Assembly: GCF_900102185.1 (NCBI RefSeq)
Contig: NZ_LT629690.1
Coordinates: 1,550,001 to 1,614,000, forward strand
Direction: 5' to 3'
Origin: Terriglobus roseus
Lineage (GTDB): Bacteria > Acidobacteriota > Terriglobia > Terriglobales > Acidobacteriaceae
DNA: 64,000 nucleotides
Under the pieces are notes generated by a model. It saw only the letters and a list, made by a program, of their open reading frames with translations. It was not told where the DNA came from and did not search any database. Made by a program: the position numbers and the translations under genes. Shown piece by piece: positions 9,397 through 61,409 of the stretch (the first letter of the stretch is position 1; every line of letters starts with the position of its first letter).

Positions 9397-10818
9397 CTAC
9401 TCCCGGTCCTTACGTTTCTTGATTTCCACGTTCAGGCGCTTGATCTTCTGGTTCAGCGTGCTGAGCGGAATCTTCAGGAACTCCGCGGCTTCCGTCTGGT
9501 TCCAGTTGCAACGTTCCAGTCGATCCGAAATGATGCGGCGCTCAATCTCTTCCATGATGTCGAAGAGACTGGAATCTGCCTTCGTGTCCAGAGCAGCAGC
9601 GGTGTAAACGGTTCCACTCAGCTGCTGCGGAAGAATCTCCAGCGTGACCGTTGGTGTGGACGACAGAACAACACCGCGCTCCATCGCGTTCTCCAGCTCA
9701 CGCACGTTTCCGGGCCACTCGTAATCCATCATGGCGCGCAAAGCATCAGGAGCAAGCGTACGCAACTCAAAGCCGTTCTCGTCGCTATAGCGCTTCAGGA
9801 AGTGCGCTGCCAGTAGCGGAATGTCTTCACGACGCTGACGCAGCGGCGGCAGATCCAGGTTGATGACAGACAGGCGATAGAACAGATCCTCGCGGAAGCG
9901 TCCTTCCTTCACTGCTGTCTGCAGGTTCACGTTCGTCGCAGCCACAATGCGGACATCAACGGCGATCTCCGTCGTTCCACCCACAGGAAGGAAGCGGCGC
10001 TCCTGCAACGCACGCAGCACCTTCGCCTGCGTATCAAGCGGCATGGTGCCAATCTCGTCCAGGAACAGGGTTCCGCCATCAGCAGCCTCGAACAGGCCCT
10101 TCTTCGTAGCGATGGCTGACGTGAAGGCACCCTTCACATGGCCAAAGAGCGTGGACTCCAGCAGGTCCGTTGGAACCGCGCCAGTATTGATGGCCACGAA
10201 CGGCTTGTCATGGCGTGGTGATGCGGTGTGAATGGCCTTGGCAATCAGCTCCTTGCCCGTACCACTCTCACCCTGGATCAACACGGTGGTCTTAGCCGGA
10301 GCCACCTGCGCAACCGTGTCCAGCAGCTTCGCCATCACATCGGACTTGCCCACGATGTTGTCGAAGGAGTAGCGCTGCTTGAGCGTGCGGCGAAGCTGTG
10401 TGACTTCCTGTAGTGACCGTTGCTTGGCAATGGCGGTGCGGATGTCGGCGAGTAGCTTCTCGTTATCCCACGGCTTCTGTACGAAGTTATCCGCGCCCGC
10501 GCGCAGAGCATCGACCACATTCCCGACCGTGCCATAAGCGGTGATCATGATCACCGGAAGCTCCGGCCGCATGCGCTTGATACGAGGCAGCAGATCGATG
10601 CCGCTCTCACCGGGCATCGAGAGGTCCAGCAGCAGCAGATCGTACTCGTTGGAGGAGAGCATCTCCAGGCCGGACTGGCCTTCAGGAGCCATCTCTACTG
10701 TGAAGCCCTCAAAGGTCAGCAGCGTCTCCAGGGAGTCGCGGATTCCGGCTTCGTCGTCGATGATGAGGATGCGTGCGCCCAGGGCGTTGCTAGTATCGAG
10801 TGTTGCTGCCTCAGGCAT
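9397..10818 (-). CDS. NtrC-family sigma-54 response regulator
   Basis: A 473-aa protein with receiver, AAA+ and HTH domains. Receiver: phospho-acceptor D65 in LLLLDLSMPG, acidic DD at 21-22, K115. AAA+: Walker A GESGTGKE at 183-190, Walker B LFLDEIG near 251. C-terminal Fis-type helix-turn-helix in NQTEAAEFLKIPLSTL. The sigma-54 contact loop reads GAFTSA (230-235) rather than the usual GAFTGA. It overlaps the upstream kinase gene by eight bases, so the two form a cognate pair. A dispersed repeat starts right after the stop. Confidence 0.92.
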   Translation of the reverse strand: MPEAATLDTSNALGARILIIDDEAGIRDSLETLLTFEGFTVEMAPEGQSGLEMLSSNEYDLLLLDLSMPGESGIDLLPRIKRMRPELPVIMITAYGTVGNVVDALRAGADNFVQKPWDNEKLLADIRTAIAKQRSLQEVTQLRRTLKQRYSFDNIVGKSDVMAKLLDTVAQVAPAKTTVLIQGESGTGKELIAKAIHTASPRHDKPFVAINTGAVPTDLLESTLFGHVKGAFTSAIATKKGLFEAADGGTLFLDEIGTMPLDTQAKVLRALQERRFLPVGGTTEIAVDVRIVAATNVNLQTAVKEGRFREDLFYRLSVINLDLPPLRQRREDIPLLAAHFLKRYSDENGFELRTLAPDALRAMMDYEWPGNVRELENAMERGVVLSSTPTVTLEILPQQLSGTVYTAAALDTKADSSLFDIMEEIERRIISDRLERCNWNQTEAAEFLKIPLSTLNQKIKRLNVEIKKRKDRE

Positions 10819-25508: not shown

Positions 25509-26093
25509 CTACTGATCCTTCAGCGCGAAGGCGACGATGGTGGTGCCGGTGATGCCGGTTTGTTCGTCGAGTGTGGCTTCGAGCGCAGGGTCGGGTAGGT
25601 GCAGTTCGGCCGCGGCGATGGTCTCTGTTGGCGCTCCTACAAAACACAGTTCGCAGACGCCGAATCCATCTTCTTCTGTGCGGACGGGCGGGCCGAAGGT
25701 GCGGCAGGTCATGGGCCGATGCGCGTAGAGATCGCAGGTGCCGGTGGCGGGATCGAGGACAGGACAGACGGCTTCATTGGCGAAGTCTTCGAATTGTTCG
25801 AGGGAGGCCTCGTCTTCGTAGAGGATGCCGGTGGCGGTGTCGCCGGGGAAGTCTGGGCTTAGGTCTGCGATGGATTGTTGAACGCGTTCTTGGATGCGTT
25901 GTTGCCTGTCTGGTTCGGTGATGCGGAAGCCTTCGCGGAGGCGTTCTGTGTCGAGCGGGCCGATGCGGAAGACGCCGGTGCAGCATTGGCTGCATCCCGG
26001 ACGACAGGCCAGCCATGGGCCGCTGCGACGGGTTGCGTCTGCGAGGGCGGCGTCCATGAGCTGGATGAGTTGACTGTCGTCGGGGGGCACCAT
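25509..26093 (-). CDS. YkgJ-family cysteine-cluster protein
   Basis: A 194-aa protein with CRPGCSQCCTG near residue 26 and CPVLDPATGTCDLYAHRPMTCRTFGPP near residue 112, the Cys set that in YkgJ/UPF0153 proteins binds Zn or an Fe-S cluster. The function of this family is not settled. It starts nine bases after the purB stop on the same strand. Confidence 0.85.
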   Translation of the reverse strand: MVPPDDSQLIQLMDAALADATRRSGPWLACRPGCSQCCTGVFRIGPLDTERLREGFRITEPDRQQRIQERVQQSIADLSPDFPGDTATGILYEDEASLEQFEDFANEAVCPVLDPATGTCDLYAHRPMTCRTFGPPVRTEEDGFGVCELCFVGAPTETIAAAELHLPDPALEATLDEQTGITGTTIVAFALKDQ

Positions 26094-26102
26094 GGCTGGC
26101 TC

Positions 26103-27422
26103 TTACTGCGCCTGGAGCTCGCTTAGGGGCTTGCCGAAGACGCGTTCGAAGATGGCGGGGACGTTGTTGAGGCGGCGGTTCACGTCGAAGGCGCGTGCGA
26201 TGCGTTCGGGCGAGAGCAGGCTGGTGATCTGCGGGTCGGCGGCGACGAGTTCCTTGAAGACGAGGTCTTCTTTCCATGCCTTCATCGCGAGGGTCTGGAC
26301 GGTCTTGTAGGCGTCTTCGCGGAGCATGCCGGCTTCTGCGAGGTCGAGCAGGAGCTGGCCGGAGAAGACGAGGCCGCCGGTGAGGTTCAGGTTCTTCAAC
26401 ATGCGCTCGGGGTAGACCATGAGCTTGTCGATTAGGTTGGTGGCCTTGCTGAGGGTGTAGTCGGCGAGGGTGGTGGTGTCGGGCAGGATGACACGCTCAG
26501 CGGAGGAGTGCGAGATATCGCGCTCGTGCCAGAGGGCAACATCTTCAAGTGCTACTTGAGAGTTTGCGCGCATCACGCGGGCAAGGCCGCAGATGTTTTC
26601 GCAGGTGATGGGGTTGCGCTTGTGCGGCATGGCGCTGGAGCCCTTCTGCTTTTCGCTGAAGAACTCTTCGGCTTCGCGGACTTCGGTGCGCTGCAGGTGG
26701 CGGATTTCGGTGCCGATCTTGTCGAGCGAGGACGCGATGATGGAGATGGCGCCGATGTATGCGGCGTGGCGGTCGCGCTGGAGAACCTGTGTGCTGACTT
26801 CAGCGGCCTTGAGGCCGAGGCGCTTGCAGATTTCTTCTTCCAACTGAGGGGTGACGGTGCCGTAGCTGCCGACTGCGCCGGAGAGCTTGCCTACGCGCAT
26901 GTCTTCAGCGGCGGCAGTGAAGCGCGTGATGTTGCGCTGGCACTCGGTGTACCAGAGGAGCAGCTTGAGGCCGAAGGTGGTGGGTTCTGCGTGGACGCCG
27001 TGCGTGCGGCCGATGCAGGGTGTGAGCGCGAACTCGATGGCGCGGCGCTTGAGGACGTCAGACAGCGCGTGCAGGCCTTCGAGGATGGTTGCGGATGCTT
27101 TCTTGAGCAGCAGGGCTTGCGCGGTGTCGACAACGTCAGTGGAGGTTAGGCCGAAGTGCAGCCAGCGGGATTCGGGGCCGACCTTTTCCGCGACGGCGGT
27201 GGTGAAGGCGATGACGTCGTGGCGTGTCTGGAGTTCGATTTCCTGGATGCGGGCGATTTCGAAGTCGCCCTTGGAGCGGATTGCCCTGGCGGCTTCCTGG
27301 GGGACGATGCCGGCGTCGGCGAGGACTTCGCTTGCGGTCGCTTCAACTTCGAGCCATGCACGGAACTTCGATTCGTCGGACCAGAGCTGGCGCATGGCGG
27401 GGCGTGTATAGCGATCGATCAA
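26103..27422 (-). CDS. purB: PurB, adenylosuccinate lyase
   Basis: A 439-aa fumarase/aspartase-superfamily lyase of purine synthesis, splitting SAICAR and adenylosuccinate. The superfamily signature GSSAMPHKRNP lies near residue 259, and HGVHAEPTTFG near 143 holds the catalytic His. The frame opens to 27551, but ATG 27482 and the opening ATG would overlap or touch the divergent gene at 27491. TTG 27422 has an AGAGG site nine bases upstream and gives the usual N-terminus (LIDRYTRPAM), so it is preferred. Confidence 0.93.
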   Translation of the reverse strand: MIDRYTRPAMRQLWSDESKFRAWLEVEATASEVLADAGIVPQEAARAIRSKGDFEIARIQEIELQTRHDVIAFTTAVAEKVGPESRWLHFGLTSTDVVDTAQALLLKKASATILEGLHALSDVLKRRAIEFALTPCIGRTHGVHAEPTTFGLKLLLWYTECQRNITRFTAAAEDMRVGKLSGAVGSYGTVTPQLEEEICKRLGLKAAEVSTQVLQRDRHAAYIGAISIIASSLDKIGTEIRHLQRTEVREAEEFFSEKQKGSSAMPHKRNPITCENICGLARVMRANSQVALEDVALWHERDISHSSAERVILPDTTTLADYTLSKATNLIDKLMVYPERMLKNLNLTGGLVFSGQLLLDLAEAGMLREDAYKTVQTLAMKAWKEDLVFKELVAADPQITSLLSPERIARAFDVNRRLNNVPAIFERVFGKPLSELQAQ

Positions 27423-27478
27423 GGGAACGTACCTCTTTGGCGTGGTGGCCGGGATAAGCGCAGGCTGCGCGCGCGCTA

Positions 27479-27494
27479 CCATTAAGTTTAATGG
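27479..27494. promoter_or_regulatory. Perfect dyad at the purB/TPR divergent junction
   Basis: CCATTAA-GT-TTAATGG is a perfect 7-bp dyad. It contains the ATG of the TPR gene on one strand and an ATG of the longer purB frame on the other. It could be an operator shared by both genes. Confidence 0.35.
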
Positions 27495-28684
27495 ACGCAC
27501 GAAGTCGCGATGTCGTGGTGGCACCTTTACCGTCGCAGGTGCAGGCCGCACGACGACGCCAGATGGTGAGAGACGGCCTCAAATTCCTGACACTTACGGT
27601 TGTTGCGCTGTTGATGAGTGGCGTAACGACGCTGCTGTTTCGCAGCTTTGAGTCGCACCGGGAGGTTCTGGCGGTGCGATGGGCGGAGCGTGGGCAGGAG
27701 GCGCTAGCTGCCGGGAAGCCAAAAGAAGCTGTTAATGCTCTGCACACTTCACTAGGGTTTCGACCCGATGTTCGTGAGAACCAGCTTGCCCTGGCGCGTG
27801 CGCTGGCGGCGAGTGGGCGCGTGATTGAGGCAGAGAATTACTTTTTGAACCTGTGGCAGACGCAGCCGGGCGATGGCGGCATCAACCTGGAGCTGGCTCG
27901 GTTGGTGCGGCAGCAGGGCAGGCCGTTCGATGCGATTCAGTATTACCGGGCCGCTGTGTTCGGTACATGGAACGGCGATGGTCCTGCGCGTCGGCGGGAT
28001 ATTCGGCTGGAGTTGTCGAGCTACCTGGTGGAACTGGGGCAGGGTAAGGCGGCTCGCGCGGAGTTGTTGATTGCGGCGGGGAATAATCCGGATGCGTCTT
28101 CGCAGCTTCGTATTGGTGAGGCGCTTGAAGCGGCAGATGCTCCGAAAGAGGCTGCGACAGCTTATCGCAATGCGATTGATGACAAGACATATGCTGCGAC
28201 CGCGCAGGCGAAGCTGGGCGAGCTTTGCTATGCGCAGGGTGACTATGCGTGCGCTGCAGAGGAGTTGACGCGCGCTTTGCGCAAGCCTTCGTGGACGGTG
28301 GAACAGAAGCAGCGCATGAGTACGTTGCAGGGGAATGCGGAGCGCATGCAGGCACTGGCGCTTTCGCATGATGTGCCCTCACAGATGCGCGCGGAGCATT
28401 TGTTGGACGCGTCGCGGATTGCGATGGCGCGCGTGAATGGATGCCTTGTGCAACATGCGGAACAGGCTGACATGATGCAGTTGCAGACGCAGTGGAAGGA
28501 CCTGGATACGGCAAAAAATCGTGTAGAGCTGCGGCATGACGACGATGTGCAGGATCAGTATCGGAAATTGATTTTCAGTAGTGAACGGAGCGCGGCCAAT
28601 GTTTGCGGCGCGCCCAAGGGGGACGATGCTTTGTTGCTTTACCTGGCGGACCATCCGGCGACGCAGTTCGGAGGTCAGTCATGA
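27491..28684 (+). CDS. TPR-repeat protein with one membrane helix
   Basis: A 397-aa protein. A single membrane helix near residues 33-52 follows a short cytoplasmic N-terminus. The rest is helical with several tetratricopeptide-like repeats (for example AERGQEALAAGKPKEAVNAL and AKLGELCYAQGDYACAAEEL). ATG 27491 has no recognisable ribosome site and lies in a dyad. It overlaps the ClC gene by four bases (ATGA), so the two are co-expressed. Likely an envelope scaffold; exact role unknown. Confidence 0.78.
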   Translation: MDARSRDVVVAPLPSQVQAARRRQMVRDGLKFLTLTVVALLMSGVTTLLFRSFESHREVLAVRWAERGQEALAAGKPKEAVNALHTSLGFRPDVRENQLALARALAASGRVIEAENYFLNLWQTQPGDGGINLELARLVRQQGRPFDAIQYYRAAVFGTWNGDGPARRRDIRLELSSYLVELGQGKAARAELLIAAGNNPDASSQLRIGEALEAADAPKEAATAYRNAIDDKTYAATAQAKLGELCYAQGDYACAAEELTRALRKPSWTVEQKQRMSTLQGNAERMQALALSHDVPSQMRAEHLLDASRIAMARVNGCLVQHAEQADMMQLQTQWKDLDTAKNRVELRHDDDVQDQYRKLIFSSERSAANVCGAPKGDDALLLYLADHPATQFGGQS

Positions 28685-30405
28685 GCGCTCAGGAACCGGC
28701 AGTGGTTTTGCAGGAGATGGAAGCGGCCGCAGAGCAGCAGGTGGAACATTCTTCGAAGCGTGAAGGACGACTGTTTCTTCTGCTCAGCATTTTTATTGGA
28801 TTGATCTCTGGCCTGCTGGTGGTTTCTTTCCGCATGGCCATTGAGTGGCTGACGGTGTTGCTGCAGGGATCGGCGCCTGCGCCGCACCAGTTGCGGTTGT
28901 TGATTGTGCCTACTGTGGTGGGTGTGGTGCTGGGCTTGATGACGCGCTACGTCTTTCCGGATGTGCGCGGTTCTGGTGTGAACCAGACCAAGGCTGCTCT
29001 GTACATTCACAACGGCTACATCTCGACCAAGACAATGATTGGCAAGTTTCTGCTTGCTGCTTTGTCGATTGGATCGGGGCAATCGTTGGGGCCTGAAGAT
29101 CCTTCGTTGCATTTGGGTGCAGGTGTGGCTTCGCGCATCGGGCGCTACGTGGGATTGTCTCGTGCGCGTATGCGACTGTTTGGGCCGGTGGGTGCAGCGG
29201 CAGGTCTTGCAGCGGCGTTCAATGCACCGATTACTGCTGTGCTGTTTGTGATTGAAGAAGTCATCGGCCAGTGGACCGCGGCGATTCTTGGATCGATTGT
29301 TTTGTCCGCTGTTTCTGCCGTTGTGGTGGCGCGATGGTTCTGGGGATCGCAAGCGATGTTCCGCGTTCCCAATGTGAATCTGCGTGATCCGCGCGAGTTG
29401 ATGGCCTACGCAGTGCTGGGTGTGATTGGCGGATTTGCATCGCTTGCGCTGACACGCGCGTTGGAATATCTGCGGCCTCGTCTGCGGAGTCTGCCTGCGG
29501 ATCGACAGGTGTTTGCGCCTGCGGTTGCTGGTTTGTTTGTTGGGGCGATCGCGTATCTTGGTCTGCCGCAGGTGTTGGGTGTGGGCTATGGCACGATGGA
29601 TGCCGCCATGCACGCGGAGTATACAGTTGGGTTTCTGTTGTTGTTGGCAGGGATCAAGCTGCTGACGACTACGTTCTCATTTTCATCGGGTGCGCCGGGT
29701 GGATTGTTTGCTCCTGCGTTGTTCATTGGCGCGATGCTGGGTTCTGCGGTGGGAACGTTTGAGCACCACTTCTTTCCGTCGCTTACTGGATCGGTGGGAT
29801 CGTATGCGTTGGTGGGCATGGGCGTGTTCTTTGCAGCGTTCATTCGGGCGCCGCTTACGAGCGTGTTCATGATCATGGAGATGAGCGGCAACTACACGAT
29901 TGTGTTGCCGGTGATTGTGTCGAACACGATTGCGTACATCATTTCGCGTTCGTTGCAGCCGGTTCCGATCCTTGAGGTGTTCACGCATCAGGATGGTTTG
30001 TATCTGCCGTCGCTGGAAGAGGAGCGCGAAGACACCGAACTGCGCGTGGAAGATGCGTTGCGGCCTGCGGATGTACCGGTGCTGAATGGCGGCGAGATGT
30101 TGAAGGAGTTGAGCGAGAGTGCCGTTGCTTCCGTTGTGCTGATCCGTTGCAGCGATGGTTGGTATGCCGCGCGGCAGACGGAGATGCAGGATCTGTTGCA
30201 GGCGGCGCAGATCAATGGCGACAAGACGCTGGAGCAGAGTGTGGCTGCCCGCAGGACGCCGATGCTGTTTCCGGATCAGCCGCTGGCGCATGCTTTGCCT
30301 TACTTCAAGAACTGGCCGTTGCTGCCTGTTTCCAATCGCGCGATGCGAGGCGTGGTGGAAGGTGTGGTGACGTTGCAGGATGTGTTGGACCGTTACCAGC
30401 AATAA
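28681..30405 (+). CDS. ClC-family chloride channel/transporter with C-terminal CBS region
   Basis: A 574-aa protein with about ten membrane helices. The region SLGPEDPSLHLGAGVAS holds the gating Glu and GAPGGLFAPALFIGAMLG is the G-x-F-x-P filter segment. The last 130 residues form a cytoplasmic CBS-like part (VEDALRPADVPVL and RAMRGVVEGVVTLQDVL). ATG 28681 is in an ATGA overlap. Whether it is an H+/Cl- exchanger or a channel cannot be read; acid-tolerant soil bacteria often use such exchangers. Confidence 0.9.
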   Translation: MSAQEPAVVLQEMEAAAEQQVEHSSKREGRLFLLLSIFIGLISGLLVVSFRMAIEWLTVLLQGSAPAPHQLRLLIVPTVVGVVLGLMTRYVFPDVRGSGVNQTKAALYIHNGYISTKTMIGKFLLAALSIGSGQSLGPEDPSLHLGAGVASRIGRYVGLSRARMRLFGPVGAAAGLAAAFNAPITAVLFVIEEVIGQWTAAILGSIVLSAVSAVVVARWFWGSQAMFRVPNVNLRDPRELMAYAVLGVIGGFASLALTRALEYLRPRLRSLPADRQVFAPAVAGLFVGAIAYLGLPQVLGVGYGTMDAAMHAEYTVGFLLLLAGIKLLTTTFSFSSGAPGGLFAPALFIGAMLGSAVGTFEHHFFPSLTGSVGSYALVGMGVFFAAFIRAPLTSVFMIMEMSGNYTIVLPVIVSNTIAYIISRSLQPVPILEVFTHQDGLYLPSLEEEREDTELRVEDALRPADVPVLNGGEMLKELSESAVASVVLIRCSDGWYAARQTEMQDLLQAAQINGDKTLEQSVAARRTPMLFPDQPLAHALPYFKNWPLLPVSNRAMRGVVEGVVTLQDVLDRYQQ

Positions 30406-30406
30406 G

Positions 30407-30432
30407 AAACGCCCTGCGAGTGCAGGGCGTTT
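30407..30432. terminator. Bidirectional terminator hairpin
   Basis: AAACGCCCTGC-GAGT-GCAGGGCGTTT is a perfect 11-bp stem starting one base after the ClC stop. It ends with T/A at both sides and serves the ClC gene and the convergent glutaredoxin gene. Confidence 0.85.
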
Positions 30433-52286: not shown

Positions 52287-53030
52287 ATGAGAGTGATGGT
52301 GGCAGAGGATGATGGGGCACTTTCTGTGTTTCTTAAGAAAGCGCTTGAATTGGAAGGGAATACGGTTCGCCTAGTAACAGATGGGGCCGGCGTATTAGAG
52401 GGCATTGAGGAAGACATGCCTGACCTGTTGGTGCTGGATCTGGGGCTTCCGCGGATGGATGGCGTGGATGTGCTGCGAGCACTGCACGGTCAGATCGACC
52501 TAATGTCCGTCCTGGTGTTGTCAGGTCGTTCGCAGCTTTCGGAAAAGATTGAATGTTTGAACCTGGGCGCGGATGACTATCTGTTGAAGCCGTTTTCCAT
52601 GTATGAGTTGCTGGCACGTTGTAAGGCGATTGGTCGGCGGCGTATGGGATCCTCTGCTGGTTTGTTGCAATGCGCGGGATTGCGTATGGACCGCATTAAA
52701 CGCAGTGTTTCCTATCACGAAGAGTTGCTGGACTTCACCTCAAAGGAATTTACGTTGCTGGAGTACCTGCTGCTGCAGAAGGGACGCGCTGTATCTCGTC
52801 GTGAACTCCTGCAGAATGTGTGGCAGATGTCGCCGGACGCCGGAACGAATGTGGTGGATGTTTATGTGAACTATCTCCGCCGTAAGCTGAGCGCAGTGGG
52901 CGCGTCGGGTTTGGTGCAGACGATGCGTGGCGAGGGATATGGCATTGCCGCGAAACAGAACGACGGTTTGCCGCGATTCGCAACCATGCCTATTGACGCT
53001 CGTTATCAAACGGCGTTGGAGGTTGCATGA
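52287..53030 (+). CDS. OmpR-family response regulator
   Basis: A 247-aa receiver plus winged-helix protein. Phospho-acceptor D51 in LLVLDLGLPRMDG, acidic pair at residues 8-9, Lys in GADDYLLKPFS. The C-terminal part (DFTSKEFTLLEYLL, then NVVDVYVNYLRRKL) is the OmpR DNA-binding domain. ATG 52287 has AGGAG eight bases upstream; the longer frame is not needed. It is the first gene of a three-gene ATGA-coupled series ahead of flgK. No complete kinase gene is nearby. Confidence 0.92.
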   Translation: MRVMVAEDDGALSVFLKKALELEGNTVRLVTDGAGVLEGIEEDMPDLLVLDLGLPRMDGVDVLRALHGQIDLMSVLVLSGRSQLSEKIECLNLGADDYLLKPFSMYELLARCKAIGRRRMGSSAGLLQCAGLRMDRIKRSVSYHEELLDFTSKEFTLLEYLLLQKGRAVSRRELLQNVWQMSPDAGTNVVDVYVNYLRRKLSAVGASGLVQTMRGEGYGIAAKQNDGLPRFATMPIDARYQTALEVA

Positions 53031-53269
53031 ACCAGATGGAGTTGACCATGGACGATGCTGCATTGGAAGAACTGGATGACGCAATCCACGCCTTGTCACA
53101 GCCTTTAACCGCGCTGTTGTTTGCTGTGGAGATGGCTGCTCTCCGCACGACACCCGATGAGATACAGGACGCATTGAACACTGCGCGCGCCGAGTGCCGC
53201 CGGGCAGTGGCGGAGTTGGAGCGAGTGCGTGAAGCCGCGGCGCGTCTTGAGGCGGGAGGGTCGCGATGA
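53027..53269 (+). CDS. 80-aa isolated histidine-kinase DHp-like protein
   Basis: Residues 12-35 read as the first helix of a HisKA dimerisation domain, with His21 in AIHALSQPLTALL, the pattern H-x-L-x-x-P-L-T-A of kinase H-boxes. Residues 42-75 are a second helix (EIQDALNTARAECRRAVAEL). No ATPase domain follows: the gene ends and the next one starts in an ATGA overlap, as it does at its own start. It therefore looks like a kinase fragment kept as a separate phosphotransfer or docking protein. Alternatives are an HPt-like carrier or a coiled-coil dimeriser. Confidence 0.65.
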   Translation: MNQMELTMDDAALEELDDAIHALSQPLTALLFAVEMAALRTTPDEIQDALNTARAECRRAVAELERVREAAARLEAGGSR

Positions 53270-54522
53270 ATTCAGTCGTGGCGGCGTCTGTTCAGCAACG
53301 TTCTGTGGTGTTGGTCACTCCGGATACGGAGTTGCGGCATAAGCTTTCCTCTTTGCTTTCAGATATGCGTTGGCAGGTCTTTCCAGCTTCCGGAGGGGCT
53401 GAGGCGATGATGCATCTCGGCAGCCTGGAGCCCGAGGCCATGATTGTGGATCACTGGCTTCCGGACCTGGATGCGTCGGAGTTTGCTGAGTATGCGGCGA
53501 CGGTTTGTCCTGCGACGGATATGTTGCAAATGGATGGTAGTTGCAACGGTTCTAAAGTGCGCAGCGCGCGGCGTAACGAGCTTCTTCATGCGTTGCGAGA
53601 GGCGCAAGAATGCTGCGTGGAGAGAACACCTGCAACCGGTGGATTTGATGGTGCGGCCTGGCTTCATGCGCCTGTTACGGTGCCCTTTGCTGCGCCGATG
53701 GCGGTGGTGAAAGAAGCGCTTCCTGAGGTTGCTGAAGAGGTCAAGATGCATCTTCCGGAGTTTGTTGGAGACGCTTTGAAGATGCGGGAGTTGGCGCAGC
53801 AGATCCGCTTGGTCGCCCCACATGCAACTGCGAATGTTCTTGTGTTGGGAGAAACGGGAACAGGAAAAGAGTTGGTTGCAAAGGCCGTGCACCGGTTGAG
53901 CCCTCGTGCAGGAAAGCCGTTTGTTGTGTTGAACTGTGCGGCAATTCCGGAACACCTGTTGGAAGCTGAGTTGTTTGGCCATACGCGCGGAGCGTTTACA
54001 GGGGCGGTTTCTTCGCGCATGGGGCGCATAGAAGCTGCGCATGGTGGAACGCTTTTTCTGGATGAAATTGGAGAGATGCCGCTGCCGTTACAGGCGAAGA
54101 TGCTGCGGTTTCTGGAGAACGGCGAGATTCAGAAGGTGGGTGAAAACGAGCCTATCCGTGTGGATGTGCGCATTGTTGCGGCGACGCATCAGCCTTTGGA
54201 AGAACTCGCTCGTGATCGGCGGTTCCGACCGGATTTGTATTATCGGCTTGCTGTATTTCCCGTGGAGATCCCGGCATTGCGGGAGAGGCGTGAAGATATC
54301 CCCATGCTGGTGGAACACACATTGCGCAAGCTTGGCGATAGCATGCCTCGTAAATCGATCAGCAGCGAAGCTCTTTCGCTATTGATGGAGCTTGACTGGG
54401 CAGGCAATGTTCGTGAGCTTTGCCACATGGTCCATCGCGCAGTGATTCTCTGCGGCGAGGAAGCGGGTATTCGGCCAGAACATATTCTGCTGCCGGGACG
54501 TTTCTCGGCGATGCAACATTAG
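53266..54522 (+). CDS. Sigma-54 activator with degenerate receiver and no DNA-binding domain
   Basis: A 418-aa protein. The first 115 residues are receiver-like, with D62 in MIVDHWLP but without the Thr/Lys pair and with a shortened end. The AAA+ domain has Walker A GETGTGKE (195-202), the sigma-54 loop GAFTGA (242-247), Walker B TLFLDEIG (262-269) and the R-finger part. After HILLPGRF the protein stops at residue 418, where a Fis-type HTH would normally begin. Activators of this kind work from solution, as in some flagellar systems. It stands ahead of a sigma-54 promoter and flgK. Confidence 0.88.
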   Translation: MNSVVAASVQQRSVVLVTPDTELRHKLSSLLSDMRWQVFPASGGAEAMMHLGSLEPEAMIVDHWLPDLDASEFAEYAATVCPATDMLQMDGSCNGSKVRSARRNELLHALREAQECCVERTPATGGFDGAAWLHAPVTVPFAAPMAVVKEALPEVAEEVKMHLPEFVGDALKMRELAQQIRLVAPHATANVLVLGETGTGKELVAKAVHRLSPRAGKPFVVLNCAAIPEHLLEAELFGHTRGAFTGAVSSRMGRIEAAHGGTLFLDEIGEMPLPLQAKMLRFLENGEIQKVGENEPIRVDVRIVAATHQPLEELARDRRFRPDLYYRLAVFPVEIPALRERREDIPMLVEHTLRKLGDSMPRKSISSEALSLLMELDWAGNVRELCHMVHRAVILCGEEAGIRPEHILLPGRFSAMQH

Positions 54523-54551
54523 AAAACTCGTAAACGAAACACATGTTGCAG

Positions 54552-54577
54552 TTAGGCCGCTCACAGGAGCGGCTTAA
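54552..54577 (+). terminator. Hairpin between the activator and flgK
   Basis: TTAGGCCGCTC-ACAG-GAGCGGCTTAA, a stem of 11 bp with one mismatch. No T-run follows; it could partly end the regulator transcript just before the flgK promoter. Confidence 0.55.
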
Positions 54578-54581
54578 CTCT

Positions 54582-54597
54582 TGGCCTTCTACGTGCA
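54582..54597 (+). promoter_or_regulatory. Sigma-54 promoter of flgK-flgL
   Basis: TGGC at 54582-54585 and TGCA at 54594-54597 give the -24 GG and -12 GC pair with exact spacing (GG to GC 12 bases, consensus TGGCACGN4TTGCA). Transcription should start near 54608, 37 bases ahead of flgK. The activator gene that could open this promoter ends 60 bases upstream. Confidence 0.65.
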
Positions 54598-54644
54598 TTT
54601 ATCGGCAGTAAGTTGAAGTGACTTTAGTCAGGAGGGAGGGATTC

Positions 54645-55997
54645 ATGCTTGAGATGCCAACAGCCGATGCACTGGAGCGCTATCTGACGCTGACCACGCA
54701 GCAGATGAAGTTGACTGCGACGAATATGGCGAATCAAAATACCGATGGCTACACGCGCCGTGTTGCGAGTTTTTCCAATAACGATACCGTGAATGTGAAC
54801 GGTATTTCGACCAGTTCCGGCGTGTCAGCGACTGTTACAGCACAGCGGGACCGTGTTCTGCAGCGATCTTTGCAGCAGGCGACAGAGGCTTCAAGCGCCA
54901 GCAGCGCACGGACCACGGCGCTTGATAATCTGCAATCGTTATTCATGATCGATAGCTCTGGTGATGATGCGTCTGGAATCGGCGCAGCAATCAGCAACTT
55001 CTTTAACAGCATGACCTCACTTGGGTCGTCGCCTTCAGATACCAATACGCGGCAGACGGCGTATACCGCTGCGCAAGCGCTAGTGACGACGATGAACCGC
55101 ACGGCGTCGCAACTTTCTTCACAGACGTCATCGCTCAATCAGCAGATTGGCACGTCTGTGGACCAGGTCAACAGCCTGCTCACGAATATTGCGTCCTTGA
55201 ACAAGCAGATTCAGCAATCGGGTGGTCAGGATACGGATGGTTTGCAGGACCAGCGTGACCAGGCTGTTCTCTCGCTAGCAAAACTGGTGGATGTGAATAC
55301 GGTCACGGCAACCGATGGAACAGTGAATCTGTCATTGTCCGATGGGACGCCTCTGTTAAGCGGAACGCAGGCGATGAACCTGAGCACGGCTACCGTCAGT
55401 GGCAACTTGCACATTCTTTCGAACGGAAACGATGTAACGAGTTCTGTTTTGTCAGGGAGTATCGGCGGCTTGCTGCAGGTTCGCGATCAGGATATTCCTG
55501 CGGTGCAGCAACAACTGGATGCGGTCGCCGTTGCGATTTCATCTGCAGTGAATGCCCAAAATGCCGCAGGGACTGATGCCAATGGAAATGCTGGAGGCGA
55601 CGTCTTTTCTGGCAACACGGCTGCAACGCTGAGTATGGCTATCAGCAGTGGTGGCGGCATTGCCGCATCGTCGGATGGAAGCAACGCTACAGCGATTGGG
55701 GCTGTGGCATCGCAGGCAATTGTGGGATCGATGACCGCGTCTGGAGCTTTTTCCACGATGATCACATCGTTGGGGCAAACGGTTTCCGGTGCCAGTACTA
55801 CAAAGTCCGCGAACGATGCCGTGCTGACACAAACCTCAACGCAAGTCGCGAATGTGTCGGGTGTCTCGTTGGATACGGAAGCCGCAAATCTTACACAGTA
55901 TCAACGTTCGTATGAGGCGGCGGCAAAGGTGCTGTCGATTGCGAATGAGCTAATGGCGCAGGCGATCAATCTTGGCCAGCAAACGACGGTGTCGTAA
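54645..55997 (+). CDS. flgK: FlgK, flagellar hook-associated protein 1
   Basis: About 450 residues from ATG 54645, behind a strong GGAGG site; the frame's first codon at 54618 lacks one. The N-terminal helix with TNMANQNTDGYTRRV is the conserved D0 motif (N-x-A-N-x-x-T-x-G-Y), and the C-terminal YQRSYEAAAKVLSIANELM the matching D0/D1 helix. FlgK joins hook and filament. The central domain is shorter than in enteric FlgK. flgL follows after 23 bases; no other flagellar gene is in the window. Confidence 0.9.
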   Translation: MLEMPTADALERYLTLTTQQMKLTATNMANQNTDGYTRRVASFSNNDTVNVNGISTSSGVSATVTAQRDRVLQRSLQQATEASSASSARTTALDNLQSLFMIDSSGDDASGIGAAISNFFNSMTSLGSSPSDTNTRQTAYTAAQALVTTMNRTASQLSSQTSSLNQQIGTSVDQVNSLLTNIASLNKQIQQSGGQDTDGLQDQRDQAVLSLAKLVDVNTVTATDGTVNLSLSDGTPLLSGTQAMNLSTATVSGNLHILSNGNDVTSSVLSGSIGGLLQVRDQDIPAVQQQLDAVAVAISSAVNAQNAAGTDANGNAGGDVFSGNTAATLSMAISSGGGIAASSDGSNATAIGAVASQAIVGSMTASGAFSTMITSLGQTVSGASTTKSANDAVLTQTSTQVANVSGVSLDTEAANLTQYQRSYEAAAKVLSIANELMAQAINLGQQTTVS

Positions 55998-56020
55998 CGC
56001 GACCAGCGGGAGAATGATTC

Positions 56021-56902
56021 ATGTTGAATAGCACCACCTCACTACAGCAAATGCTTGCGTCGCTCTCGAATCTGTCGGATCAGCAAACGCGCATCTCGCA
56101 GGAGATGTCTTCTGGCCTGCGCATCACTTCATTGGGGGATGACCCAGTGGCGTCGGGGCAGGCGGTGACTATGGCTGATGCATTGCGCCAGGATGCGGCC
56201 TTCTTGTCGACTGCCAGTAGTGCAACCAATCGCATGCAGACCGCGGACACTGCTTTGGGTTCTGTCGTGTCGCAGTTAACGTCGGCTATCAGCACCGCGA
56301 CGGGAGCGTTTAATGACACAGGAAACGCGACGACCCGTGCGACTGCTGCGCAATCTCTGACGTCTATTCGTGACACGATCGTCTCGCTTGCGAATAGCAG
56401 CTATGGCGGGGCTTATTTGTTCTCTGGATCTTCGGCCGTGACTCCGTTTACGGAAGATGCGTCTGGGAATGTGACCTATACCGGCAATACAGACGTTACG
56501 AGTGTTGGGTTGACGTCAGGTGGCACAGTAACTACGTCTCTTACCGGGAGTGATGTTTTTACGGCATCGGGAGCATCGGTCTTTGATGCTTTGAATAACA
56601 TCATCACCGCGTTGCAGAGTGGAACAACAACGGATGCTACATCACTTGTGGGTGGATTGCGGGATGCGTTGAATAATGTCATCTCGCAGCGTTCGACTTT
56701 GAATTCGGCCCAAAGCCGTATTTCGGGTGAGAGCGACTACATCACTGCGCAAAAGACCAACCTTCAGGCACAACAATCCACGCTGTTGTCTGCCGATACA
56801 GCGACGCTCGCGACGGAGCTTTCGGCGGTGACAACGCAGCGCTCCGCGTTGTTGAGCACGATTGCAGCCGTGCAAAAGGGAAGCCTCTTCGACTACCTGT
56901 AG
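56021..56902 (+). CDS. flgL: FlgL, flagellar hook-associated protein 3
   Basis: A 293-aa flagellin-like protein. The N-terminal helix with LSNLSDQQTRISQEMSSGLRI (positions about 17-37) and DDPVASGQAV, and the C-terminal TTQRSALLSTIAAVQKGSLFDYL region form the paired helices. FlgL is the second junction protein, between FlgK and the filament. A GGGAG site precedes ATG 56021. It is co-transcribed with flgK, and the transcript may end at the hairpin at 56912-56939. Confidence 0.9.
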   Translation: MLNSTTSLQQMLASLSNLSDQQTRISQEMSSGLRITSLGDDPVASGQAVTMADALRQDAAFLSTASSATNRMQTADTALGSVVSQLTSAISTATGAFNDTGNATTRATAAQSLTSIRDTIVSLANSSYGGAYLFSGSSAVTPFTEDASGNVTYTGNTDVTSVGLTSGGTVTTSLTGSDVFTASGASVFDALNNIITALQSGTTTDATSLVGGLRDALNNVISQRSTLNSAQSRISGESDYITAQKTNLQAQQSTLLSADTATLATELSAVTTQRSALLSTIAAVQKGSLFDYL

Positions 56903-56911
56903 CGGCAGTGT

Positions 56912-56939
56912 CATGCCGATATCCGGTACACTCGGCATG
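56912..56939 (+). terminator. Hairpin after flgL
   Basis: CATGCCGA (56912-56919) and TCGGCATG (56932-56939) are a perfect 8-bp inverted repeat with a 12-base loop, ten bases after the flgL stop. No T-run. Its last base is the first base of the next start codon, so it could also hold that start in a stem. Confidence 0.5.
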
Positions 56940-57166
56940 TGATTGGTGCGCTCAGTTTTCTATGGAACAGCACACGCGGAGCTAGGTTGCGTCCGTGGCG
57001 AAGCCCTTATCTTCTATGGCGCATTGAGACGTACTCCGGTATGCACGCAGAGGAGATTGGCGCGAAAGACGTAATGCGTTTCCTCTGGCAGGAGAAATGG
57101 CAGTTCCTGCGATTCCTTCGATGGACTGACGAGATCCGCAAAGAGAGCAAAACTCCTCATGCCTGA
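56939..57166 (+). CDS. Small Trp/Arg-rich protein ahead of the xylanase
   Basis: A 75-aa protein from GTG 56939. It is basic and rich in Trp (about seven) with no signal peptide or membrane helix: LWNSTRGARLRPWRSPYLLW, then YSGMHAEEIGAKDVMRFLW. The end overlaps the GH10 gene by eight bases, so translation is coupled. The family was not recognised. The start codon lies at the end of the inverted repeat following flgL. Confidence 0.65.
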   Translation: MIGALSFLWNSTRGARLRPWRSPYLLWRIETYSGMHAEEIGAKDVMRFLWQEKWQFLRFLRWTDEIRKESKTPHA

Positions 57167-58373
57167 TTCGCGTTCATTCAGTCGCAGAGAGTTGCTGCAG
57201 GGAGCTTCGGTGGTTGCGACCTCTGCAGCTATGACGACGTTGACTGGATGCGGCCCGAAGCGGATGTCGGGCTCCGCGCATGGATTACCGGGAGTGGACG
57301 TCAGCGGGCCTCACTCGTTGAAGGCACATGCGATGGATGCGCGAATGCTCTTTGGCTTCGCCGTCAACATTCAGAAGTTGCGTGACGATGCTGGGTATCG
57401 CGCTCTGGTAGAGCAGCAGTGCAGCATTATCGTCGCGGAAAATGCGATGAAATGGCAGGCGCTGCGGCCAGCAATCGATCAGTTTTCTTTCGCAGACGCG
57501 GATGCGTTGGTGGAATTTGCCTCCCGCCGTCACATCCGTCTCCGCGGGCATAACCTCTGCTGGCATGAGGCATTGCCGGAGTGGTTTTCCAGACAAGTGA
57601 CGGCGGTGAATGCGCGCCAGTTGCTGCGGGAGCATATCCGCACTGTGGCTGGTCGCTACGCCGGGCGGATGCATTCGTGGGATGTGGTGAACGAGGCGAT
57701 CGAGGTGAAAGATGGTCGTCCCGACGGCCTTCGGAACACACCCTGGCTGCAGCTGATCGGCACTGACTACATCGAGATGGCATTTCGGGTGGCGCGCGAT
57801 GCCGACCCGTCGGCGTTACTGACGTACAACGAGTACGGGATAGAGCAGGAAACGCAGGAAGCCGCTATGAAGCGGGCTGCGGTGCTTTTGATGTTACGGC
57901 GGTTAAAGCAACGCAATGTGCCGTTGGACGCGGTTGGTATTCAATCCCACTTACAAGCGCAACCCGCGTACGGTTACGGGGCTGGTTTGCGGCGGTTTGT
58001 GCAGGATTGTCGTGAGATTGGTCTAGAAGTCTTTGTTACGGAACTGGATGTGAACGACCGCACTTTGCCTTCGGACGTTTCGGCGCGGGATATTGGGGTG
58101 GCTAGTCGTTATCGCAGCTATCTGGATCTGTTATTGCCGGAAAGAAACGTGACGGCTGTATTGACGTGGGGCGTTTCGGATGACGGAACATGGTTAAACA
58201 ACGGCAAGGATCGGGCGAGGGAAGATGGCTTACCCCAACGTCCTCTGCTATTTGACGATCATCTGCGCGCCAAACCGGCATTTGTAGCTGTTCGGGATGC
58301 TTTTGATGCACGGCGGCAGACGGGTGCCTTGCGGAGTACCCCAACACAGCAGAAACCACTGCCGAAACTGTAG
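57159..58373 (+). CDS. GH10 endo-1,4-beta-xylanase, Tat-exported lipoprotein
   Basis: A 404-aa enzyme. The twin-Arg signal SRRELLQ at residues 8-14 is followed by a lipobox LTGC (28-31), so the folded enzyme is exported by Tat and anchored through Cys31. The GH10 barrel has acid/base E179 in WDVVNEAIE, nucleophile E295 in FVTELDVND, and HNLCWHEALPEWF near 131. It cuts xylan, consistent with plant-polymer use in soil. Why it sits next to flagellar genes is not evident. It overlaps the small upstream gene by eight bases. Confidence 0.9.
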   Translation: MPDSRSFSRRELLQGASVVATSAAMTTLTGCGPKRMSGSAHGLPGVDVSGPHSLKAHAMDARMLFGFAVNIQKLRDDAGYRALVEQQCSIIVAENAMKWQALRPAIDQFSFADADALVEFASRRHIRLRGHNLCWHEALPEWFSRQVTAVNARQLLREHIRTVAGRYAGRMHSWDVVNEAIEVKDGRPDGLRNTPWLQLIGTDYIEMAFRVARDADPSALLTYNEYGIEQETQEAAMKRAAVLLMLRRLKQRNVPLDAVGIQSHLQAQPAYGYGAGLRRFVQDCREIGLEVFVTELDVNDRTLPSDVSARDIGVASRYRSYLDLLLPERNVTAVLTWGVSDDGTWLNNGKDRAREDGLPQRPLLFDDHLRAKPAFVAVRDAFDARRQTGALRSTPTQQKPLPKL

Positions 58374-58380
58374 GTTGGCT

Positions 58381-58409
58381 TTGGCGAATCTTCGCCCCAG
58401 TGGTATCCT
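58381..58409 (+). promoter_or_regulatory. rpsO promoter (sigma-70 type)
   Basis: TTGGCG (58381-58386), 17-bp spacer, TATCCT (58404-58409). Expected start near 58416, about 40 bases ahead of the rpsO start codon. Confidence 0.6.
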
Positions 58410-58458
58410 GTTGCGTAGACCAATTCGGCTTTATTGAAATCAGGAGCACTACAAGACA

Positions 58459-58725
58459 GTGTTGGCAACAGTTAAAAAGAACGAGATTATCAGCAAGTAT
58501 CGTGTGCACGATACCGATACCGGCAGCCCCGAAGTGCAGATCGCTATTCTGAGCGAGCGCATCGGCCAGTTGACCGAGCACTTCAAGACGCACAAGAAGG
58601 ACCATGGTTCGCGCCGCGGCCTGCTGATGCTGGTGTCCAAGCGCCGCAGCCTGCTGGATTACCTGAAGAAGAACGACTCCGACCGCTACCGCGAAGTGAT
58701 CGCGAAGCTCGGCATCCGTAAGTAA
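58459..58725 (+). CDS. rpsO: Ribosomal protein S15
   Basis: An 88-aa protein with [35 protein letters not shown] and LLDYLKKND, the complete S15 pattern of the small subunit. The start codon is GTG 58459 (GTG-TTG), behind CAGGAG. The usual rpsO-pnp order is kept. In E. coli S15 represses its own mRNA through a leader pseudoknot; no such structure was traced here. Confidence 0.97.
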
Positions 58726-58794
58726 ATCTTCCTTCAAGTTATTCCGAGGGCCGCTTCTCGTGCATTCATTTATCGGGAGCACCGTATCTGCTGT

Positions 58795-58840
58795 GCCGGG
58801 ACGTTATCGTCCCGGCTACACGCTCTTTCAGAGGAGCGTG
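58795..58840 (+). promoter_or_regulatory. Hairpins in the rpsO-pnp gap
   Basis: GCCGGGACG-TTAT-CGTCCCGGC (58795-58816) and CACGCTC-8 bp-GAGCGTG (58819-58840) are perfect stems in the 290-bp gap. In E. coli the corresponding region is an RNase III-cut stem that lets PNPase control its own mRNA; these may have a like role. The remainder of the gap shows no gene. Confidence 0.5.
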
Positions 58841-59015
58841 AACGGTTGAGCCTGCCCTTCGGCACATCCAGTATTTTGTTCCGGACATCGTCTGGAATGA
58901 CCCTCGCATCGTCATTTTCAAGAATTTCGCGCCACGCAGGCCACCGTGCCGTGCGTGCGCATGCGCACGTCTGCGCAAATAAGTTTCCATATACCAAAAA
59001 GAGAGAATACCCGCT

Positions 59016-61409
59016 ATGAAGCAGGAGATTACCGTTGAACTTGCCGGTGGCAAGAGCATCACATTTGAAACGGGCCGCATTGCCAAGCAGGCATCGGGCG
59101 CTGCCTTTGTAAGCAGCGGCGACACCGTTATCCTGGCAACCGCCGTTGGCGCTCCGGAGCCGAAGGAAGGCATCGACTTCTTTCCGCTGACCGTTGAGTA
59201 TCGCGAAACCAGCTACGCCGGTGGCCGTATCCCCGGCGGTTTCATCAAGCGTGAAGGACGCCCTTCTGAGAAGGAAATCCTCACCTCGCGTCAGATTGAC
59301 CGCCCCATTCGTCCCCTGTTTGCTGAGACTTACCGCAACGAAACCCAGGTGGTTGCGTTCGTGTACTCCGCGGATAAGCAGAATGATCCCGACGCAATTG
59401 CCATCAACGCAGCATCCTGCGCTCTGGCTCTCAGCGACATTCCGTTCCTTGGCCCCATCGGTGCGGTTCGCATCGGCATCGTAGACGGCGAGTTCATCGT
59501 GAACCCCACCTATGAGGAGCGCGGTAAGAGCCTGCTGAACATCATGGTTGCCGGTACGAAGGACGGCATCACGATGGTGGAGTCTGGCGCGAAGGAAGTT
59601 TCGGAAGACAAGGCTGTTGAAGCGATCGAGTTTGCTCATGGGCAAATCAAGCTGATCTGTGCTGCTATCAACGAGCTAGCTGCAAAGGCTGGCAAGCAGA
59701 AGCGCGCTGTTGCAGAAGCAGAGGACCTGTCCGGCTACTACAACGAGCTGAAGTCGCAGGTAGGTGAGCGCCTGACCGATGCTCTGGACACGCAGAAGTA
59801 TGGCAAGACCGAGAGCTACGCGAAGATCGCTGAAATCAAGAGCGAGTTGAAGAAGGCTCTGCCGGAAGGCGATGCTGCCGCTGCCAAGAAGCTGGGCAAG
59901 GTCTACGAACTGTTGCGCGAAAACATCTTCCGCGAGCAGGTTCTGAAGAACCGCATTCGTCCCGACCGTCGCGCTTTCGATGAGGTTCGCAAGATCGATA
60001 TCGAAGTGGGCGTTCTGCCGCGCACGCACGGTTCGGCGTTGTTCACCCGTGGCGAAACACAGGCCCTGGTTACTGCAACACTCGGTACCGCAGACGATGC
60101 GCAGCGCCTGGAAACCTACGAAGGCGAAGTGAAGAAGCGCTTCATGCTTCACTACAACTTCCCGCCGTATTCCGTTGGTGAAGTTGGACGTATGACCGGT
60201 ACTGGTCGCCGGGAAATCGGCCACGGCGCTTTAGCTTCGCGTGCGATTGAAGCAGTTCTGCCGGATGAAAAGTCCTCGCCCTACACGCTGCGCGTGGTGT
60301 CAGATATCACCGAGTCGAATGGTTCCTCGTCCATGGCTTCGGTCTGCGGCGCTTCGCTGTCGCTGATGCAGGCTGGCATTCCGCTGAAGGCTGCTGTTGC
60401 TGGTATCGCTATGGGCTTGGTTAAGGAAGGCGACGACTACGCTGTCCTGACCGACATTGCTGGTGCGGAAGATCACTACGGCGACATGGACTTCAAGGTG
60501 GCCGGAACGCGCGAGGGCATTACCGCGCTGCAGATGGACATCAAGATCATGGGCATCACGCCGCAGATCATGCGTGAGGCTTTGGCGCAGGCCAAGGCTG
60601 CTCGCCTGTTCCTGCTGGACAAGATGGATGCGGTGATCGCGTCGGCTTCGGAAGAGAAGTCGCGCTACGCTCCGCAGATCAAGACCCTGCAGATTCCGAC
60701 GGACAAGATTCGTGACCTGATCGGACCTGGCGGCAAGGTAATCCGCGGCATTATCGAAGCCACACAGGTGAAGATCGACGTGGACGACAGCGGTAAAGTC
60801 GATGTTTCGTCGAGCGATCCGGATGGCCTCGCACGCGCGATCCAGATGATCAGTGATCTCACGGCTGTTCCTGAGCCGGGTAAGACCTACCTGGGCAAGG
60901 TAGTTCGTCTGGCAGAGTTCGGTGCATTTGTCGAAATCTTCCCCGGTACGGACGGCCTGCTGCACGTTTCTGAAATCGCAGAGCATCGCGTAAAGGACGT
61001 GAAGGACGAACTTCGTGAAGGCGATCAGGTTCTTGTGAAGGTACTGGCAATTGAAGGCAACCGCATCAAGCTCAGCCGTAAGGCTGTTCTGAAGGAGCAG
61101 CGTGCAAAGCTTGGCCTGCCTGAGCCAGAGACGGAACAGGCAAGCAGCGATCGCGGACCACGTCCGCCTCGTCCGGCAGCACCCGCACCGACGGAGACCA
61201 TCACGCTGGAAGGCGGCGATGACTTCGACGAGGATGATGATTTGGACGAAGAGGGCGAGGATGAAGGTGATGAGTCCGATGCAGCGAACCCGGATGCTCC
61301 GTCGCAGAACGCAGGCGACGCAGCTCAGGCGCAGCGTCGTCGTCGCCGCCGTCGTGGTGGACGTCGTGCACCTGGCGCTGGCGGTAACAACGGCGCACCT
61401 CGTGCGTAA
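59016..61409 (+). CDS. pnp: Polynucleotide phosphorylase with long acidic/Arg-rich tail
   Basis: A 797-aa exoribonuclease. Two RNase PH domains (GGRIPGGFIKREGRPSEKE near 70; second with TGTGRREIGHGALASRA near 395), a KH domain (IRDLIGPGGKVIRGI near 568) and an S1 domain (YLGKVVRLAEFGAFVEI near 630) are in order. From about residue 700 there is an added tail: an acidic run (DFDEDDDLDEEGEDEGDESD in part) and then about eight Arg in a row within a basic stretch. E. coli PNPase has about 711 residues, so the tail is extra. A strong terminator follows. Confidence 0.96.
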   Translation: MKQEITVELAGGKSITFETGRIAKQASGAAFVSSGDTVILATAVGAPEPKEGIDFFPLTVEYRETSYAGGRIPGGFIKREGRPSEKEILTSRQIDRPIRPLFAETYRNETQVVAFVYSADKQNDPDAIAINAASCALALSDIPFLGPIGAVRIGIVDGEFIVNPTYEERGKSLLNIMVAGTKDGITMVESGAKEVSEDKAVEAIEFAHGQIKLICAAINELAAKAGKQKRAVAEAEDLSGYYNELKSQVGERLTDALDTQKYGKTESYAKIAEIKSELKKALPEGDAAAAKKLGKVYELLRENIFREQVLKNRIRPDRRAFDEVRKIDIEVGVLPRTHGSALFTRGETQALVTATLGTADDAQRLETYEGEVKKRFMLHYNFPPYSVGEVGRMTGTGRREIGHGALASRAIEAVLPDEKSSPYTLRVVSDITESNGSSSMASVCGASLSLMQAGIPLKAAVAGIAMGLVKEGDDYAVLTDIAGAEDHYGDMDFKVAGTREGITALQMDIKIMGITPQIMREALAQAKAARLFLLDKMDAVIASASEEKSRYAPQIKTLQIPTDKIRDLIGPGGKVIRGIIEATQVKIDVDDSGKVDVSSSDPDGLARAIQMISDLTAVPEPGKTYLGKVVRLAEFGAFVEIFPGTDGLLHVSEIAEHRVKDVKDELREGDQVLVKVLAIEGNRIKLSRKAVLKEQRAKLGLPEPETEQASSDRGPRPPRPAAPAPTETITLEGGDDFDEDDDLDEEGEDEGDESDAANPDAPSQNAGDAAQAQRRRRRRRGGRRAPGAGGNNGAPRA

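Follow-up and report, generated by a model that had tools for sequence, protein, structure and literature searches.

The locus considered here lies in a 64,000-nucleotide stretch of the Terriglobus roseus genome (hereafter the window; G000:C1:1550001-1614000, in a genome assembled as a single contig of 4,851,966 bases), where three regulatory genes stand directly upstream of genes recognised as flgK and flgL, all on the plus strand. The first gene (52287-53030 of the window) encodes a 247-amino-acid OmpR/PhoB-type response regulator, with Pfam Response_reg and Trans_reg_C domains and the receiver residues E7, D8, D9, D51, S79 and K101. The second (53027-53269) encodes an 80-amino-acid protein that consists only of a dimerisation and histidine-phosphotransfer (DHp) domain (HisKA, E 1.7e-5), with an H-box of the form HxLxQPLT containing His21, and without an ATP-binding domain. 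The third (53266-54522) encodes a sigma-54 activator, or bacterial enhancer-binding protein (bEBP), with a degenerate receiver, an AAA+ domain carrying GAFTGA (Pfam Sigma54_activat and AAA_lid_14) and no helix-turn-helix. Two ATGA overlaps, at the starts at 53027 and 53266, link the three genes, which are followed by a GC-rich hairpin (54550-54579), by a -24/-12 (sigma-54) promoter-like site, TGGCCTTCTACGTGCA (54582-54597), by a 450-amino-acid reading frame beginning at 54645 and by flgL (56021-56902), which encodes a hook-filament junction protein of 293 amino acids (NCBIfam equivalog score 155.3 against a cut-off of 127.2 bits). The original prediction had listed these same elements, overlaps included, and all of them are confirmed. 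It had, though, read them as a self-contained switch for hook-filament junction genes; our analysis points instead to the scar of a large deletion at which five genes remain, a reading to which we give a probability of about 0.92.

The nearest relatives, G032 and G046 (bEBP identity to the window protein 89.9% and 89.0%), carry a whole flagellar cluster, which in G032 runs in the order flgB-flgC-fliE-fliF-fliG ... flgM-flgK-flgL. At the DNA level, window positions 52912-54752 align to positions 1-1830 of the G032 cluster (82%) and positions 54732-59500 to 25665-30425 (85%), an offset of 23,855 bp, and the overlap of the two alignments (54732-54752) marks the deletion junction. Between flgB and flgK, G032 has 23 named genes (flgC, fliE, fliF, fliG, fliH, fliI, flgD, flgE, fliL, fliP, fliQ, fliR, flhB, flhA, a sigma-70-family, sigma-28-like gene, fliM, fliN, flgF, flgG, flgA, flgH, flgI and flgM; fliH, flgD and flgA named from matches below curated cut-offs), together with unassigned open reading frames and the remainder of flgB and flgK. 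Compared one codon at a time, the window gene tracks flgB through AAT (Asn30) and flgK from the next codon; the segment gone, in G032 numbering, extends from after flgB codon 30 to flgK codon 31. The reading frame at 54645 is a chimera, in which residues 1-30 of FlgB (54645-54734, matching the FlgB N-terminus of G032 and G046) run on in exact register into FlgK, which begins at its native codon 32 (Gln; 54735-55997). Annotation by family models would hide this fusion, because the chimera passes as FlgK (TIGR02492, 271.4 against a cut-off of 170.75 bits over residues 17-442; FlgK_D1, 1.3e-58). It has no native FlgK N-terminus (the start of D0, which reads MGTLIGLL in G032 and MGSLIGLL in G046), and Flg_bb_rod, which matches G032 FlgK, finds no match in it. 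The deletion of rod, hook, MS (membrane/supramembrane) ring, switch and export-gate genes, of the sigma-28-like gene and of flgM fused the flgB promoter and first 30 codons in frame to flgK, leaving the trio of G000 with only flgB'-'flgK-flgL beneath it; flgK stands under this promoter because the 23.9-kb deletion brought it there.

For several of these families the absence is genome-wide. FliF (MS ring), FlhA (export gate) and rod-domain proteins (PF01514, PF00771 and PF00460; E 0.001) are found in none of G000, G097 and G078, the latter two being members of the genus to which we return below, and are present in all three of G032, G046 and G059; these were the families covered by the genome-wide Pfam searches, FliG, FliM and FliN, encoded in the deleted segment, lying outside them. 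The claim that flgK and flgL are kept apart from the other flagellar genes is correct as far as it goes, yet understated, as no rod-domain, FliF or FlhA match was found anywhere in the one-contig genome. An inversion or translocation that merely moved the cluster is rejected, since these genes are absent and not displaced. Because FliF, FlhA and rod proteins are lacking, we propose that G000 cannot build a flagellum and that motility has been lost.

Other flagellar genes have stayed in place. Flagellin is found in all six of the genomes just named; G000, G097 and G078 also keep FliD, FliS and MotB. In a second flagellar locus of G000, the genes for FliD, FliS, FlbD, MotA and MotB have uninterrupted reading frames and Pfam names, and so do those for FliC and FliD in G097 and G078 and for FliS in G097; by homology, the reading frames of fliS in G078 and of the stator genes in both G097 and G078 are also uninterrupted. 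Loss of motAB in G097 was considered and rejected: motA and motB sit elsewhere in that genome, and its MotB has a shorter tail with the conserved part kept. The FlbD-family gene of the second locus (L189, 8962-9213; 83 amino acids, Pfam E 5.1e-24) stands beside motA-motB and fliC-fliD-fliS and has homologues in G097 and G078. T. saanensis is described as non-motile (PMC3570800), and G059, which is presumably this species, has FliF, FlhA, rod proteins and flagellin, so motility in the genus may be conditional.

The position of the three regulators in relatives shows what has been lost beneath them. Of the 249 genomes of the order, 58 have a match to the DHp protein, and from these we compared 57 loci, namely the window and 56 others (G177 was omitted, and one of the two matches in G169 was taken); a bEBP match is present in 55 of them. 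As a rule, the trio stands at the head of the main flagellar cluster: fliF follows it within 4 kb in 41 of the 57 loci, with the order flgB-flgC-fliE-fliF complete in 40 and FlgB unmatched in one. FlgK comes directly after the trio in three loci only (G000, G097 and G078); the remainder comprise eight with neither gene (one has FliF at 4.6 kb), three whose stretches end too early and two without a bEBP match. The operon of the three regulators is genuine and conserved, and to this extent the unit originally predicted holds.

Within the window, the number of -24/-12 motifs (5 seen against 4.33 expected) is uninformative because it is at chance level. Across loci, TGG-N9-TGC[A/T] occurs 31-180 nucleotides past the bEBP stop codon in 34 of 54, against 689 of 10,800 random 150-nucleotide stretches of the same loci; the promoter-like site predicted here is thus present at a conserved position, preceding flgB in intact relatives, and is presumably an active sigma-54-type promoter. 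The window and seven relatives of the genus (G032, G046, G097, G078, G351, G045 and G059) share a hairpin with the promoter immediately after it; the layout takes another form in G073 and G010 and is less clear in G043, G065, G038, G149 and G006. The hairpin is probably the terminator of the regulator operon. G000 has one rpoN match and nine strong bEBP matches (Pfam), and four further matches, weak but above the Pfam cut-off, are probably other AAA+ proteins.

The same weld recurs within the genus. In a census of 19 genomes, the window protein is found as one piece (residues 1-450) in G000, G097 and G078; it is split into FlgK and a separate FlgB in 11 of the 19, represented by the FlgK part only in two and by FlgB only in one, and not found in two. 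In the split genomes, the FlgK part begins at residue 16-21 (at 79 in the fragmentary G344). FliF is present in 15 of the 19, the fourth genome without it being G347, which is 80% complete; among the genomes at least 89% complete, all three FliF losses show this same fusion. Outside the genus, 17 genomes with FlgK and without FliF were checked (a selection of such genomes, several of them incomplete), and the chimera was found in none: in 16 FlgK starts normally, and the remaining one is truncated at the 5' end. A genome of another genus (G049; G049:C3:369985-370758 and L195) keeps FlgK and neighbouring flg genes without FliF, and its motB match has an in-frame TGA, an independent loss of another shape. 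G065, 98% complete, has FlgB and FliF, and FlgK was not found there.

Could the trio nevertheless serve as a dedicated switch, controlling flgK and flgL specifically? The promoter does stand before flgK-flgL in the window, the operon is intact, and G097 and G078 have the same layout. Comparison of gene order had been named as the check on this idea, and the order trio-flgK-flgL proved not to be conserved: as set out above, the usual neighbour is fliF, in 40 loci with flgB-flgC-fliE ahead of it, flgK here starts with flgB codons, and no FliF, FlhA or rod protein is left in the genome. We regard this explanation as scarcely credible. It is also improbable, if a little less so, that the deletion arose only once and spread by recombination, or that it is ancestral, with G351 and G032/G046 having regained the cluster. 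The junction is identical in the three carriers, these share a larger clade with G351, G032 and G046 (92/94 in the tree of flanking genes and 99/98 in that of FlgKL), and the three changes needed on the trees may equal one gain and two losses. Against this, in trees of flanking genes G097 groups with G351, and the window groups with G032/G046, both at 100/100, with a single origin in 0 of 200 bootstrap trees, and repeating the regulator tree with the intact response-regulator gene of G032 led to the same conclusion. Furthermore, sequence 3' of the junction is native from the first codon, both in the window chimera (compared with flgK of G046) and in that of G097 (compared with flgK of G351), G078 being without a close relative for this comparison; between G032/G046 and G351, the genes of the cluster are about as divergent as the species themselves; and the flgB part, at 90 bp, offers too little sequence to separate a donor from native DNA. 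The plain account of loss and scar is incomplete at this point, because random deletion would not be expected to yield one and the same in-register weld in three distinct lineages. Around the weld site, flgB and flgK share 36-44% identity over 90 bp in eight intact genomes, and their longest in-register runs measure 3-6 bp; homologous recombination between the two genes is rejected as a sufficient cause on these grounds. Junctions with at least 3 bp of microhomology fall in exact register in 0.09-0.20% of cases in G032, G046 and G351; with at least 5 bp there are none in register in G032 and G351, and 0.5-0.9% in G046, away from the observed codon. A hot spot acting through longer repeats is likewise rejected, because the deletions made no use of the 10-12 bp repeats that exist at other places in G032, G046 and G351. 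Sharing of the exact codon adds little, because few patches of similarity exist once an in-register join is needed; it seems to be the register itself that is surprising. For one event the likelihood of an in-register join by chance is small, and for three independent events it becomes negligible if nothing selects for or directs the junction.

Selection would supply such a cause if FlgK and FlgL (perhaps also flagellin, FliD and FliS) were kept for a non-flagellar use, so that only in-register fusions giving a folded FlgK persist. The repetition of one in-register junction despite the small in-register share, the neglect of the longer repeats, the confinement of FliF losses in the more complete genomes to this fusion, the intact reading frames and the low ratios of non-synonymous to synonymous substitution (dN/dS) all agree with this. 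However, with the loss of the export gate, of flgM and of the sigma-28-like gene, secretion or expression of the filament proteins is left unexplained, and the stator proteins tell the same story as FlgK. On the window branch, dN/dS is 0.057 for FlgK, 0.036 for FlgL, 0.026 for FliC, 0.030 for FliD, 0.025 for MotA and 0.046 for MotB, and the lack of relaxed selection on all six fits a recent loss; because MotA and MotB should be useless without a flagellum and are equally constrained, recent losses are indicated, and not a special use of FlgK. Between G097 and G351, FlgK has changed about equally and MotA and MotB less on the G097 branch, while FlgL has changed more in G097 (dN 0.103 against 0.042); FlgK and FlgL may in fact evolve somewhat faster in the chimera lineages, which speaks against their being selected. 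We therefore consider such selection unlikely, and the same holds for the full proposal that three or more Terriglobus-type lineages independently lost basal body and export gate through a codon-precise flgB::flgK fusion, with FlgK and FlgL (possibly flagellin, FliD and FliS) selected for flagellum-free use under the sigma-54 trio. Some points besides the repeated weld weigh against a simple, recent loss. Window-branch values for FliS (0.067) and FlbD (0.114) are not clearly lower than in relatives, lying within or near the spread of both; constraint on the OmpR regulator is weaker along the window branch (0.198) than in G032 (0.038) and G046 (0.095); and the branch-length ratio of FlgK plus FlgL to the flanking genes is highest precisely where the chimera occurs, at 2.67-2.81 on those three branches compared with 1.10-1.85 on six others. 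These ratios hint that the losses were not all very recent, though they come from rounded and partly very short branches and we give them little weight. The converse concern is that the losses are extremely recent, having occurred in cultured strains before sequencing, or even that they are artefacts of assembly. Motility loss in culture is known in Campylobacter jejuni (PMC7677240), and the window genome, in one contig, and those of G097 and G078, in two each, look like assemblies from cultured strains. Misassembly is very unlikely, because three assemblies give the same codon-precise result; loss in culture is the likelier of the two, and together we think them somewhat improbable. This explanation overlaps with deletion as we propose it, since loss in culture would only date the event. 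The loss itself is well supported.

Large-deletion loss of flagella is already known, and what appears to be new here is repeated loss by the same in-register fusion. Xanthomonas fuscans 4834-R has lost 33 kb of contiguous flagellar genes in association with ISXfu2, and cluster deletions are reported in several xanthomonad species (PMC3826837). As in that strain, contiguous flagellar genes amounting to tens of kb are lost in Terriglobus while others stay put; in contrast to the ISXfu2-associated event, three species here show a seamless in-frame join at one and the same codon. Non-flagellated Lysobacter likewise keep a partial flagellar set, but the genes that they have lost in common (flgK, flgL, fliC, fliD and motAB, also flgB, fliE, fliG and fliM; PMC9927559) are nearly the reverse of those lost here. 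Species with filament but without rotor proteins are put at fewer than 0.3% (34/11365; PMC12199754); comparably, three of 19 genomes in one genus keep flagellin without FliF, through a defined deletion, with FliG, FliM and FliN again outside the genome-wide search. These strains are naturally repeated cases of "half a flagellum", in which proteins of the filament side persist although MS ring and export gate are missing. Neither repeated loss through one in-register fusion nor any flgB-flgK fusion appeared in the titles and opening lines of abstracts of the literature searched.

The intact relatives also show a conserved flagellar regulator trio: a full OmpR regulator, a DHp protein without a kinase domain, and a bEBP without a DNA-binding domain. 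The OmpR-type regulator has an intact receiver and a winged helix, with D51 kept in 54 of 55 aligned rows (one gap) and K101 in all 55. The HisKA score of the 80-amino-acid protein (25.2 bits) is slightly below the cut-off of 26.9, and as Pfam matched no HATPase family in its reading frame it does not qualify as a histidine kinase. Its His, Gln and Pro are kept in all 57 rows, and because the His is invariant, phosphotransfer or docking by this protein is possible. It is 65-111 amino acids long in 54 of 57 rows and 196-232 in the more distant L072, L085 and L091, where the longer proteins may carry a degenerate ATPase part and so resemble a possible ancestor of the 80-residue form. The bEBP has GAFTGA and Asp62 in all 55 rows; the positions that we take to form the acidic pair of its receiver are S/T/I/C and A/P/S throughout, and the Response_reg match reaches only E 0.041, so that the acceptor Asp stands without its acidic pair. 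No helix-turn-helix family was found in the bEBP by Pfam, and the domain is lacking, because only 27-45 residues follow GNVREL in the 53 of 55 rows that could be scored (two could not). The original prediction lacked this degenerate receiver and absent helix-turn-helix, as well as the FlgB origin of the first 30 FlgK residues.

How the trio works in the relatives we can propose only tentatively, by analogy with known systems. The OmpR regulator would bind DNA; a dimer of the DHp protein would exchange phosphate with it and dock on the degenerate receiver of the bEBP; and the bEBP would touch sigma-54 polymerase without a DNA-binding domain of its own, as FlgR does in H. pylori. FlgR is an NtrC-type flagellar sigma-54 activator without a C-terminal DNA-binding domain, which works without an enhancer and is paired with the kinase FlgS (PMC9696931). 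The Terriglobus bEBP is like FlgR as a sigma-54 activator without a DNA-binding domain, but in place of FlgS it would have a DHp-only protein and an OmpR regulator as partners, and the acid pair of its receiver is lost. ChpT and Spo0B have DHp-type helical hairpins with a phosphate-shuttling His, and ChpT has an atypical ATPase-fold domain and no autokinase activity (PMC3433190). The conserved H-box His would liken the present protein to these, whereas it is without the second domain that ChpT keeps. The literature searched held nothing specific on flagellar regulation in Acidobacteria.

Three minor observations concern other parts of these genomes. In the fliC-fliD locus of G000 (L189, G000:C1:2477001-2494000), FliC and FliD are nearer to those of G046 (dS about 0.50) than of G032 (0.86-0.89), unlike most genes, which is a sign of recombination. 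G351 has two equal motB matches (G351:C1:2625020 and 3085540) and its best FliC match is 24% like that of the window, suggesting a duplicated or exchanged filament/stator region. Lastly, the window itself contains a second sigma-54 activator domain, at 9856-10356 on the minus strand.

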